This document shows, in pieces, positions 6,563 through 9,667 of a DNA stretch of 21,912 nt. The first letter of the stretch is position 1, and each line of letters starts with the position of its first letter. The DNA comes from a virus. The stretch is taken from the IMG/VR virus record IMGVR_UViG_3300030110_002889, positions 1 through 21,912 of that record, one strand, 5' to 3'. The notes under the pieces were generated by a model. That model was not told where the DNA came from. It made no database searches and saw only the letters and a list, made by a program, of their open reading frames with translations. A program made the position numbers and the translations under genes.

Positions 6563-7202
6563 AGAACTTTGTTGTTATGATTCTGACCTTAAAAAACAAG
6601 AGGTTATAAAGTCTTGTTTTCTATCTATTCATAAAGATTTCAATGGTTTCTGTGTTCCAGAACACTTCTTGTCTTCCGTAAGAGAATTCATGCCTCAAGG
6701 TACGGTGTTGGCTGCGCCGATAGACTATCCAAAAGGTTTCTCTTCATCTCAGGCAAAATTACACTCGATAACTAGCTGTATAAGAAAAGGTGCTAATGCT
6801 GTAGATGTGGTTCTCAATAAGAATATCTGCACAGAAAAAGACTTAGATAAGCTAAGTGAAAATGTATCAGCGTACAGTAATTTATGCAAGCAAAAGAGCT
6901 GCTCTTTAAGAATCATGCTTGAGTACAGGTTGTATGAAGACCCAGACTTTGTTTATGACTTGTGTGAAATCTGCCAAGAATGTGGGGCTGATTATATCTT
7001 TGTATCAACAGGCTCGATAGCCGATGACATATATGACCATTTAATCACAGCAAAAATAGTGGAAGAAATGCTAGATATTGATATAATATATAACGCAGAT
7101 ATTTGGACACCAGAACAATACGAAAAAATAACGCTTTCGGAAGTATTCGGTGTTAGAATAAAGAAAGCAACTGCCGTAACTAACATATTCGGTGTATTAT
7201 AG
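6555..7202 (+). CDS. DeoC-like (deoxyribose-phosphate aldolase fold) protein lacking catalytic lysines
   Basis: 215 residues with the TIM-barrel pattern of 2-deoxyribose-5-phosphate aldolase. KGANAVDVVLN (78-88) matches the GADEVDVVIN strand of DeoC and keeps its Asp (Asp84). RIMLEYRLYEDPDFVYDLCE (119-138) matches the VIIE strand and following helix, and ECGADYIFVSTG (142-153) matches GADFIKTSTG. The enzyme family cleaves deoxyribose-5-phosphate to glyceraldehyde-3-phosphate and acetaldehyde through a Schiff base on the Lys of that last motif. Here that position is Phe149. The second conserved Lys, in VGVKxxGG, is replaced in DIIYNADIWT (175-185), and the phosphate-binding glycines are gone too. 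The fold is recognisable, but classical activity is unlikely. It may be a regulator, a decoy, a structural protein or an enzyme with another reaction. The length is close to that of bacterial DeoC (about 220-260). Confidence 0.7.
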   Translation: MYKELCCYDSDLKKQEVIKSCFLSIHKDFNGFCVPEHFLSSVREFMPQGTVLAAPIDYPKGFSSSQAKLHSITSCIRKGANAVDVVLNKNICTEKDLDKLSENVSAYSNLCKQKSCSLRIMLEYRLYEDPDFVYDLCEICQECGADYIFVSTGSIADDIYDHLITAKIVEEMLDIDIIYNADIWTPEQYEKITLSEVFGVRIKKATAVTNIFGVL

Positions 7203-7206
7203 TATA
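7190..7206 (+). promoter_or_regulatory. candidate promoter-like element before the abundant structural gene
   Basis: CGGTGTATTA followed by TAGTATA lies at the end of the deoC-like gene, about 65 bases before the structural-protein start. The same ten bases occur at 9442-9451 in the non-coding segment before nrdA. The TATTAT/TATAGT core resembles a -10 element, but no matching -35 is seen, so any promoter would be of a phage-specific type. This is inference from a repeated short motif. Confidence 0.25.
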
Positions 7207-7209
7207 CGG

Positions 7210-7258
7210 AACAGGAACTAAATCTTTAGGATTAACAGGAAAAATCTTCTTAACAGGA
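7210..7258 (+). promoter_or_regulatory. leader with three AACAGGA copies and a strong ribosome binding site
   Basis: AACAGGA occurs at 7210-7216, 7234-7240 and 7252-7258; the last copy continues into AGGAGGG, eight bases before the ATG at 7269. The final copy is a near-perfect Shine-Dalgarno site. The two upstream copies could act as standby ribosome sites or a protein-binding repeat. The arrangement fits a very highly translated gene. Confidence 0.5.
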
Positions 7259-7268
7259 GGGAATTATT

Positions 7269-7961
7269 ATGCCTGCAGAATCTGCAAACATAGTACAAAT
7301 CGACGGCTCTAGCGCTGTCACAGAAACTTCTACCGTCAATAAAGGCGGGGTAGTTCGTCACGGAGGCAATGTAGCTTCCGACCGTAATCTAACTTCTAAA
7401 GACATCGGAACTTTGTCTGCCGCTAGTGATGTTGTTGGTTCAACAGCTGTATCTGGTACAAACGTAACCCGTTCGGTAACTGGAGACAATCCTACTTTTG
7501 GCATGAACAAAGCTGACGCTCAAGTTAGAATGGTTGGTAACGTAAACTACGACGCCACAACTAGCAATAGAAACGGATTTACTGTTGCTGGAGAAAGCGT
7601 AACAGCCCTTAGAGGTGGAGCTTCTGATTTTGGTCAAAGAAGAAATGTTGCTAGTGTAACTCAAGTTAGAACTGTGCATACCGCAGAAGCCATCAGAGAT
7701 GGCCTATGGAATGAATTCGGTATTGCCGGACAGCGCAACCAGTGGGAATCAGCACCTACAACCAGTACATCTGGAGTGTGGGACTTGGCTGAAAACAACG
7801 CTGCTGCTGCTGATGATGACCATGCTGCTAAAAGCACTATGGGTCGTCCAGACCAAAGCGGTGGTTCTATTACGATTCATCATGGTAGACTTGGGAAACC
7901 AACTAACAGCGATGATGATTCCAATATGGTTTACAAAGCCAAACATGGAACTACTTCTTAA
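7269..7961 (+). CDS. probable abundant virion (structural) protein, Ser/Thr/Ala/Gly-rich
   Basis: 230 residues rich in Ser, Thr, Ala, Gly, Val and Asn, with no cysteine and no catalytic motif. Repeated short beta-type segments (for example GTLSAASDVVGSTAVSGTNV, 47-66) suggest a surface or decoration protein. Codon use differs from its neighbours: arginine is often CGT or CGC instead of AGA, and GGT and GCT are common, as in heavily expressed genes. The ribosome binding site is the strongest in the window and a sharp terminator follows. Together these support a major or minor virion component, for instance a head decoration protein, a fibre-like protein or a scaffold. I do not recognise the family, so the role is inferred from composition and expression signals. 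Confidence 0.6.
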   Translation: MPAESANIVQIDGSSAVTETSTVNKGGVVRHGGNVASDRNLTSKDIGTLSAASDVVGSTAVSGTNVTRSVTGDNPTFGMNKADAQVRMVGNVNYDATTSNRNGFTVAGESVTALRGGASDFGQRRNVASVTQVRTVHTAEAIRDGLWNEFGIAGQRNQWESAPTTSTSGVWDLAENNAAAADDDHAAKSTMGRPDQSGGSITIHHGRLGKPTNSDDDSNMVYKAKHGTTS

Positions 7962-8024: not shown

Positions 8025-8213
8025 ATGGAAAAGCTTAAAAACTTAGTGAAGTCACGAAGATTTTGGGTAGCAATCGCAGGTGTTGTAATTGCTGTTTCGG
8101 ATGCTCTCGGACTAGGACTTTCTCCTGAGATGGTAACCAACCTTGTTGTAGTTGGTGCATCTTGGATTGTAGGTGAGTCTCTACGTTCGTCTGATTCAAT
8201 CACTACAGACTAG
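8025..8213 (+). CDS. small two-helix membrane protein (holin-like candidate)
   Basis: 62 residues. A short basic N-terminus (MEKLKNLVKSRR) precedes a hydrophobic helix at about 13-31 (FWVAIAGVVIAVSDALGLGL). A short turn with SPE leads to a second hydrophobic stretch at about 36-51 (MVTNLVVVGASWIVG) and a polar tail. This size and topology match small phage membrane proteins including class II holins, but also other inner-membrane peptides, so holin is only a candidate. AAAGGAAAA precedes the start at good spacing. It is the first of four consecutive genes for membrane or exported proteins. Confidence 0.65.
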   Translation: MEKLKNLVKSRRFWVAIAGVVIAVSDALGLGLSPEMVTNLVVVGASWIVGESLRSSDSITTD

Positions 8214-8224
8214 AAGGTGTAAAT

Positions 8225-8506
8225 ATGCCTTTGTTTAAAAACAAAAAGAACAAAGAGGACAAAGAAGCTGAAAAGCAGGAAAAAGTTGATAGCAAGAAAG
8301 AGAAAACTTCAGATAGAAGAAGCTATAGAATTGAAAAAATTCAGGCTTTGAAAGAAAAAGCTCTAGCTGTTGCAACCAAAAGAAAATGGTTGGTGTTTCT
8401 GCTAGGCCTAGGTCTTGTCATATACTTCGTTGTATCAAGCGGAGGTATGGGTGGGGTTGGGCCAATCTTGGAAAAAGTAAAAGGATTTTTTGGATTTGCT
8501 GCGTAA
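8225..8506 (+). CDS. single-pass membrane protein with long charged N-terminus
   Basis: 93 residues. Residues 1-54 are highly charged (KNKKNKEDKEAEKQEKVDSK at 5-24) and probably form a cytoplasmic helix or coiled coil. Residues 55-72 are a transmembrane helix (WLVFLLGLGLVIYFVVSS). They are followed by a Gly-rich hinge (GGMGGVG) and an amphipathic tail (ILEKVKGFFGFAA). GAAGGTG lies at good distance before the ATG, and the gene starts 11 bases after the previous stop. Possible roles are a lysis accessory such as a holin or spanin-like factor, or a membrane anchor for its neighbours. The family is not recognised. A weak AT-rich hairpin follows its stop. Confidence 0.6.
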   Translation: MPLFKNKKNKEDKEAEKQEKVDSKKEKTSDRRSYRIEKIQALKEKALAVATKRKWLVFLLGLGLVIYFVVSSGGMGGVGPILEKVKGFFGFAA

Positions 8507-8544
8507 GGATTAGTACAAACTAATACTTTTTATAAGTTAGCAAA

Positions 8545-9138
8545 ATGAATAGACGCTATTTCTTTGTAAGTGGCGTGGCAACTTTTTTTATTTCTTTACC
8601 CTTTTTACAAAGCCCAAAAGCTATGGAGTGTTGCATGGAAGGCACAAAAGGCAACTGGGCTATAAAAGACCTCTCTTATTATTTTCTTAAATGGGACAAA
8701 GAAGATATGTCCTATGAAGACTGGTGCTCCGAATGGGTCGCTGGTTTTGAGAGCTGGTCTGATGTTTGCGATTTGAATTTCTCAAGGACTCGGGAGCTTC
8801 ATTCCGCAAATATTATAATATCATGCAATGCAGATAAAAAGCACGGGTTTGGCGAGAAGGCTGGCACATTAGCTAGAGCGCAGTTTCCCGAAAAAGATTA
8901 TTCCGGCAGTGTATTGATATGGACAGATGTTTACGAGGACTGGATAGTCCGTGCTTCAAATGAAGAAGGTATTATTCTTCAGGCCGTCGCTGCCCACGAG
9001 ATAGGACACGCTTTAGGACTAAAACATTCCAAGAACAAAGGTTCTTTAATGTACCCTAGATATAATCCATCTATAATAAAGCCTCAAGAGGAAGATATAG
9101 CTAGGATAGAAACCCTTTATAAATCAACAGGAGTCTAA
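8545..9138 (+). CDS. matrixin-type (M10-like) zinc metalloprotease, exported
   Basis: 197 residues. A basic, hydrophobic N-terminus (MNRRYFFVSGVATFFISLPF, 1-20) looks like a signal peptide, with possible cleavage near 26 (SPKA). The mature part is a compact matrixin catalytic domain: FESWSDVCDLNF (68-79) is the usual matrixin helix; GTLARAQFPE (107-116) is the calcium/zinc loop region; HEIGHALGLKH (151-161) is the HExxHxxGxxH zinc site with catalytic Glu152; and LMYPRY (168-173) supplies the Met-turn (Met169). No PRCGVPD cysteine-switch propeptide or hemopexin domain is present. The enzyme would cleave proteins outside the cytoplasm, such as periplasmic, S-layer or surface proteins. The Shine-Dalgarno signal is weak. 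It sits between membrane-protein genes, which suggests a role in lysis, entry or envelope remodelling. Confidence 0.85.
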   Translation: MNRRYFFVSGVATFFISLPFLQSPKAMECCMEGTKGNWAIKDLSYYFLKWDKEDMSYEDWCSEWVAGFESWSDVCDLNFSRTRELHSANIIISCNADKKHGFGEKAGTLARAQFPEKDYSGSVLIWTDVYEDWIVRASNEEGIILQAVAAHEIGHALGLKHSKNKGSLMYPRYNPSIIKPQEEDIARIETLYKSTGV

Positions 9139-9139
9139 A

Positions 9140-9352
9140 ATGACTGATAAGAAAAAACCAAAAAGAAAATTGTTTATTATACTAGCGATTGTAGCCGCCG
9201 CCCTATTTGTCACATCGGACAAAGGTAAAGAAATCATTGCCAAATATACTGGCAATGCAGATGTCGTTGCTACTGAATGCACGGAAGAAGGTTGCGGACC
9301 TGAGTGCCTTGTTGACGATAGCAATTGTGGTTGCGCTGCTTGTACCAGCTAA
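9140..9352 (+). CDS. small membrane-anchored or secreted cysteine-rich peptide
   Basis: 70 residues. A basic start (MTDKKKPKRK) leads into one hydrophobic helix (LFIILAIVAAALFV, 11-24). A short linker is followed by an acidic tail with six cysteines at 47, 52, 56, 63, 65 and 68, spaced C-x4-C-x3-C-x6-C-x-C-x2-C. The tail would lie outside the cytoplasm and could form three disulfides or bind metal. A strong AGGAG lies six bases before the start. The gene begins one base after the metalloprotease stop and ends at a terminator, so the two are surely co-expressed. It could be a partner, substrate or inhibitor of the protease, or a lysis peptide. The family is not recognised. Confidence 0.65.
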   Translation: MTDKKKPKRKLFIILAIVAAALFVTSDKGKEIIAKYTGNADVVATECTEEGCGPECLVDDSNCGCAACTS

Positions 9353-9375
9353 GTAAATAATTCAACTTTGCCACA

Positions 9376-9417
9376 GTGCGTTAGTGTGATAGAATACCAT
9401 GCTAGCGCACTTTTTTT
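9376..9417 (+). terminator. rho-independent terminator ending the membrane/protease module
   Basis: GTGCGTTAG (9376-9384) pairs with CTAGCGCAC (9402-9410), nine pairs with one G-U, and is followed by seven T at 9411-9417. It lies 23 bases after the stop of the cysteine-rich peptide gene. Confidence 0.85.
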
Positions 9418-9500: not shown

Positions 9501-9667
9501 AGCGACACACTCTCGGCACATAAAAATTACATAAGTATGGTTTTAACATTAAAAAAATTGCAGCATGTTTTGGCTGAAAAAAACCTTAACCAAACCTTAT
9601 CTTTTGTAAATCAAACGTGTCGCTAAATACATTACGACCCTGCTCCCCAGTGGAGTAGGGTCTTTTT
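9501..9667 (+). ncRNA. candidate structured non-coding RNA or leader between two terminators
   Basis: The roughly 270 bases between the terminator at 9376-9417 and nrdA hold no convincing open frame. AGCGACAC (9501-9508) is the exact complement of GTGTCGCT (9617-9624), which would close a domain of about 108 bases. GGTTTT (9539-9544) can pair with AAAACC (9580-9585), and AAACCTTA is directly repeated at 9582-9589 and 9593-9600 within a base. The domain ends directly before the hairpin at 9636-9667. This fits either a small phage RNA with its own terminator or an attenuated leader of the nrd operon. There is no similarity to a known RNA that I can name, and no tRNA is seen. Confidence 0.3.
9636..9667 (+). 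terminator. terminator or attenuator hairpin directly before nrdA
   Basis: GACCCTGCTCC (9636-9646) pairs with GGAGTAGGGTC (9652-9662), eleven pairs including one G-U, around a CCAGT loop, followed by TTTTT (9663-9667). The nrdA ribosome site AAGGA begins about five bases later and the ATG at 9688. There is no room for a promoter in between, so transcription of nrdA must pass through this hairpin. Confidence 0.8.

Follow-up and report, generated by a model that had tools for sequence, protein, structure and literature searches.

A phage matrixin gene with a Tat-type signal and a degenerate cysteine-switch peptide in a cassette of small membrane-protein genes

The window (the whole stretch of DNA analysed, 21,912 nucleotides) lies within a 23.9-kb IMG/VR virus record from an uncultivated phage. 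It contains a cassette composed of a matrixin gene and small transmembrane (TM) protein genes, which is closed by a terminator. The features of this cassette are listed below.

8025–8213, plus strand: TM2, a 62-aa small membrane protein, weakly holin-like (phrog_4712 holin, E 0.0049)
8225–8506, plus strand: TM1, a 93-aa single-TM protein directly upstream of the matrixin, from a family found near matrixins
8545–9138, plus strand: matrixin gene, ATG-to-TAA open reading frame of 197 aa, Peptidase_M10 at residues 38–192
8545–8622, plus strand: Tat-type signal, residues 1–26 (MNRRYFFVSGVATFFISLPFLQSPKA), with RR motif and without a good A-x-A site
8626–8643, plus strand: degenerate cysteine-switch peptide ECCMEG (C29, C30), Cys column conserved in class A (defined below)
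8995–9027, plus strand: zinc site HEIGHALGLKH, residues 151–161, HExxHxxGxxH intact
9049–9051, plus strand: Met-turn M169 (SLMYP), invariant among relatives
9140–9352, plus strand: TM4, a single-TM protein of 70 aa whose C-terminal tail is rich in Cys, a possible partner
9375–9417, plus strand: Rho-independent terminator closing the cassette, 14-bp hairpin followed by T7 (MFE -19.6 kcal/mol, z -5.0)

The gene at 8545–9138 encodes a genuine M10 matrixin, kin of the human matrix metalloproteases (MMPs). The protein matches Pfam Peptidase_M10 (PF00413) at an E-value of 2.9e-29 and 102.4 bits (curated cut-off 24), and the aligned residues cover profile positions 2–158 of 159, that is, the whole domain. 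In sequence comparison against PDB it resembles MMPs (collagenase-3, E 3.7e-17), and its AF2 model has the MMP fold, with prokarilysin (4r3v) as the top match (Z 20.9), proMMP-9 at Z 20.5, and Z of 19–21 across 150–168 residues against karilysin and MMPs. The original prediction described a minimal MMP-like enzyme with a complete HExxHxxGxxH site and Met-turn, carried by a phage, and had staked itself on conservation of the zinc site. Both parts hold: the zinc ligands, Glu and Met show no variation across 20 aligned relatives, and the Pfam match, the fold, the virus record and the phage genes nearby agree with the rest. The absence of a hemopexin domain was also predicted correctly, since the Pfam scan gave M10 and weaker metzincin matches only, and no hemopexin, other C-terminal or propeptide domain. 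No peptidoglycan-cleaving domain was found by Pfam either, so that the protein, with M10 as its sole domain, does not count as an endolysin. The PHROGs search returned no meaningful match.

The dN/dS of the matrixin is 0.33 (window against relative L002), which is purifying, while the neighbours are at 0–0.034, so the matrixin is less constrained than they are. Because it has 52 viral relatives and is under purifying selection, the gene is not a chance reading frame. A ClpP-like head-maturation protease gene lies beside it (phrog_94, E 8e-27), and the other neighbours encode ribonucleotide reductase (RNR) subunits, PhoH, SSB, RecA-like and DnaB-like proteins, a primase and a dNMP kinase, as read from translations and from the relatives L115, G001 and G002. 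The window also carries sugar-nucleotide and glycosyltransferase genes, namely an exostosin GT47 gene at 195–1103 (E 1e-18) and, at 1100–2803, a fusion protein whose C-terminal domain is a GDP-fucose-synthase-like epimerase (E 5e-55).

The predicted placement among membrane-protein genes was confirmed, with the order TM2, TM1, matrixin, TM4 and then the strong terminator. Members of the TM2 family match holin phrog_297 weakly (E 0.002–0.003, best 0.002). Four small-TM families recur near class A matrixins, across several lineages: TM1 at 10 loci, TM2 and TM3 at 8 each, and TM4 at 6. No family match was found for TM4 in Pfam or PHROGs; its dN/dS is 0.03, yet its synonymous divergence is unusually high compared with the neighbours (dS 0.93). 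A second terminator-like hairpin (9636–9662; 11 bp, then T5) stands just before the ribonucleotide reductase gene. The promoter scan gave no more sites than were found in shuffles.

In a scan with the single protein, two loci were detected (87% identity), and a scan with the alignment profile identified 52 relatives in viral contigs. These fall into two main classes and a few others. Class A, which includes the window protein, comprises proteins of about 195–225 aa with a twin-arginine motif, then a Cys and then the catalytic domain. Class B proteins have a PG_binding_1 prodomain, PRCGCPD and M10, without a signal; their loci are L165:5012–7603, L164 and L155–L163, and the L165 copy, directly behind a Baseplate_J gene, may be virion-borne. 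The proteins of L153 and the first copy of L150 possess the switch, with neither signal nor prodomain. The L150 phage carries two different adjacent matrixins (7007–7579 and 8141–8779), one with a Tat motif and the other signal-less.

When the phage rows are placed in one tree together with 22 cellular matrixins, they form a single clade (100/100), including a long-branch planctomycete row (L204), and class A is monophyletic (98/89), where the row L150_0 is the signal-less L150 copy though labelled class A. A recent capture from a cellular matrixin was considered and rejected, as the nearest cellular proteins are only about 24–37% identical over long stretches and the single phage clade holds just one planctomycete row. 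Among 50,697 isolated-phage records there is no close relative of the window matrixin, only weak local matches, and no close match of the class A member L134. The phage homologues sought as a check on the original prediction were found in viral contigs, while isolated phages gave nothing beyond these weak matches. The gene is accessory, being absent from 21 contigs that carry a related RecA, all of which are fragments; it is therefore unnecessary for lysis in general.

The N-terminus of the window protein, MNRRYFFVSG, has a twin-arginine n-region and, after it, a stretch of moderate hydrophobicity. This Tat-type motif is conserved throughout class A: the RR motif is present in all 20 aligned proteins, while shuffling of residues 2–31 gave a mean of 0.6 and a maximum of 5. 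Among cellular homologues, a loose RR pattern occurs in 1 of 48, a protein of 865 aa, and in none of the 20 planctomycete matrixin homologues among the matches fetched from 294 planctomycete genomes. An A-x-A-like site precedes the switch Cys in most class A members, and the window protein has no clear one, so its signal may remain as a membrane anchor. Judging from this N-terminal sequence, the matrixin would be exported through the host Tat pathway. The original prediction of a probable signal peptide was right about an export-type N-terminus, but it overlooked the Tat type and the lack of a good A-x-A site.

After the signal, one Cys column is invariant in the 20 and 21 sequences of the wider alignments A2 and A7, from which the switch region was read. 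In relatives, the motif is PRCGV (L134, L135 and L147), CRCG (L131), CLCGVPD (L157) or CKCG (L152). The window protein has ECCMEG in place of PRCGxPD, and its linker to the catalytic domain is shorter; its Cys is less surely placed in the switch column because the placement crosses an alignment gap. In the L134 model, confidence is 78 in the switch-bearing block and 42 and 61 on either side, and the leading fold matches are proenzymes. With registers taken from the ends of the aligned ranges and gap-free first aligned residues assumed, C35 of L134 falls on C75 of proMMP-3 and C99 of proMMP-9, and C29 of the window model on C75 of proMMP-3 and C102 of proMMP-2, at a pLDDT of 53–67. We take these three to be the cysteine-switch residues of the human proMMPs. 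From alignments and models, class A likely keeps a working cysteine switch, while it is uncertain that the switch works in the window protein, where the motif has shrunk to ECCMEG; latency of the matrixin through the switch is partly supported by the same two sources. The earlier statement that the enzyme has no propeptide stands for the propeptide domain; the cysteine-switch Cys after the signal is nevertheless kept in the clade, in degenerate form here.

The hosts of this phage lineage are probably Planctomycetota, because related phages carry planctomycete DUF1501 genes. DUF1501 proteins are encoded by 8 of 12 related contigs, and the one from L228 shares 70% identity across 406 residues with a Planctomycetota MAG protein, whose gene lies on a cellular contig next to PSCyt2/PSD1 and M50 genes. 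For comparison, matches number 92, 139 and 5 in the three planctomycete genomes, against 0, 2 and 1 in the genomes from Pseudomonadota, Bacteroidota and Chloroflexota; the DUF1501 family is vastly expanded in planctomycetes. Phages of the lineage have 1–3 such genes, with RR signals (for example L129:5683–6936, L133:7220–8446 and L228:1396–2622). No DUF1501 gene was seen on the window, and no host pointer was obtained from its glycosyltransferase; by extension from its relatives, the window phage would also infect a planctomycete. The planctomycete envelope includes an outer membrane and peptidoglycan, and the periplasm can expand greatly (PMC5394234).

Taken together, we read the window protein as a Tat-exported latent zinc endopeptidase that cuts host envelope proteins in aid of lysis, with a probability of roughly 0.4. 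In this mechanism, the matrixin would fold and bind zinc in the host cytoplasm, where the Cys beside the signal sequence would keep it latent, and the host Tat translocon would export it folded. Outside, the switch Cys would be displaced, oxidised or cut away, and the active matrixin could then cleave envelope proteins of the infected bacterium, weakening the envelope together with the holin-like and membrane proteins of the cassette and leading to lysis and virion release. We infer its late timing, envelope substrates, activation and role in lysis. The choice of envelope proteins rather than peptidoglycan, already made in the original prediction, fits M10 enzymes as protein endopeptidases and the Mtz-Tim precedent discussed below. 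Against this reading stand the weak holin matches, the degenerate switch with its low model confidence, and the lack of a clear cleavage site after the signal.

That the matrixin might be the only lysin of these phages was also considered. None of 12 related contigs, which are fragments, contains Amidase_2, Phage_lysozyme or M23, and for two related phages no lysin appeared among the families, 25 at most, that Pfam listed for selected ORFs. A wider version of the lysis reading, which we think rather doubtful, is that the whole clade consists of latent, folded, Tat-exported MMPs of Planctomycetota phages that promote lysis or break the envelope by cutting proteins, while a membrane-anchored Cys-rich partner controls the zinc site.

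The partner may instead be the substrate. TM4 begins 2 bases past the matrixin stop, and its family is linked to phage matrixins at 6 loci from about 3 lineages; the matrixin might cleave the Cys-rich tail of TM4, or the TM4 cysteines might restrain the matrixin in trans, as a regulated pair. The Listeria prophage protease Mtz does cleave its neighbour Tim (PMC8235301). However, most class A matrixins have no TM4 nearby, TM4 lacks any TIMP-like or lipoprotein feature, and in L127 two genes separate TM4 from the matrixin, and we regard such a pair as unlikely.

About as improbable, in our judgement, is a role in superinfection exclusion or surface remodelling, in which the exported protease would strip surface proteins such as phage receptors and would not aid lysis. 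The export signal and the accessory nature of the gene agree with this role, and so does its dN/dS, which exceeds that of the neighbours as in host-interaction genes. Moreover, two relatives have exported-looking Trypsin_2 proteases near their matrixins (L115:11676–12680, minus strand, and L133:1862–2551), which are also possible zymogen activators. Yet the holin-like and small TM neighbours favour lysis at least equally, and in a Gram-negative cell a Tat product should reach the periplasm first and not the surface.

An auxiliary nutrient protease or a virion-carried entry protease would suit the many metabolic genes of the related phages and the position of class B relatives behind a Baseplate_J gene (L165). 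Class A, however, has Tat motifs and no adjoining baseplate genes, and the class B proteins are signal-less, which makes either role quite improbable for the window protein. Decay of a captured cellular matrixin is very unlikely, because in spite of the degenerate switch, the accessory distribution and a dN/dS above the neighbours, selection at 0.33 remains purifying, the zinc ligands, Glu and Met are all invariant, and the phage clade is old and excludes almost every cellular matrixin sampled (100/100).

If the lysis reading is true, the phage exports its protease already folded and with zinc bound, locked by the cysteine device that human MMPs also use. This would be an unusual instance of a phage exploiting the host Tat pathway, with a lysis aid that cuts protein instead of peptidoglycan. 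The probable hosts are Planctomycetota, a phylum in which phages and lysis have received little study. The matrixins are a known enzyme family; for a Tat-exported phage matrixin, or a phage clade that combines the Tat motif with the cysteine switch, no report was found in the literature searched. Present annotation misses class A because none of about 50,700 isolated-phage records holds a close member and no PHROG covers it.

Compared with M10A matrixins (the vertebrate MMPs and karilysin of Tannerella forsythia), the window protein shares the catalytic domain, zinc site, Met-turn and fold. It differs by its Tat-type signal, by the lack of a propeptide domain or hemopexin, and by a switch of which only a few residues remain behind the signal. 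Karilysin also has a short propeptide, but with Asp where the window protein has Cys. Class B phage matrixins such as L165 are a sister group, in which M10 likewise occurs in phages and the cysteine switch is shared with class A, but they differ from the window protein in their PG_binding_1 prodomain, the missing signal and, in L165, the baseplate gene ahead. An M10-like domain in a phage is also found in Lactobacillus phage 3-521, Acinetobacter phage MD-2021a and Maribacter phage Colly_1, whose matrixin-like proteins give only weak local matches (E 0.004–0.1) or fold matches to the window protein.

A further comparison is the Mtz-Tim pair, found near lysis genes in Listeria prophages (PMC8235301). 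Mtz is a secreted metzincin whose signal is predicted to be of Sec/SPI type, and its neighbour Tim is a membrane-attached, TIMP-like lipoprotein. Through its catalytic activity, and in concert with Tim, Mtz sensitises cells to holin-lysin, enhancing their lysis and increasing the release of virions about five-fold (PMC8235301). In both systems a phage-borne metzincin adjoins a membrane-attached partner. Unlike Tim, the partner in the window is a TM protein that looks uncleaved and ends in a Cys-rich tail; no TIMP-like lipoprotein was found next to the window matrixin, which matches Listeria phage records only weakly and locally (E 0.07). By analogy, Mtz may be a model for how the window protein works, though the latter lies outside the Mtz-Tim pair.
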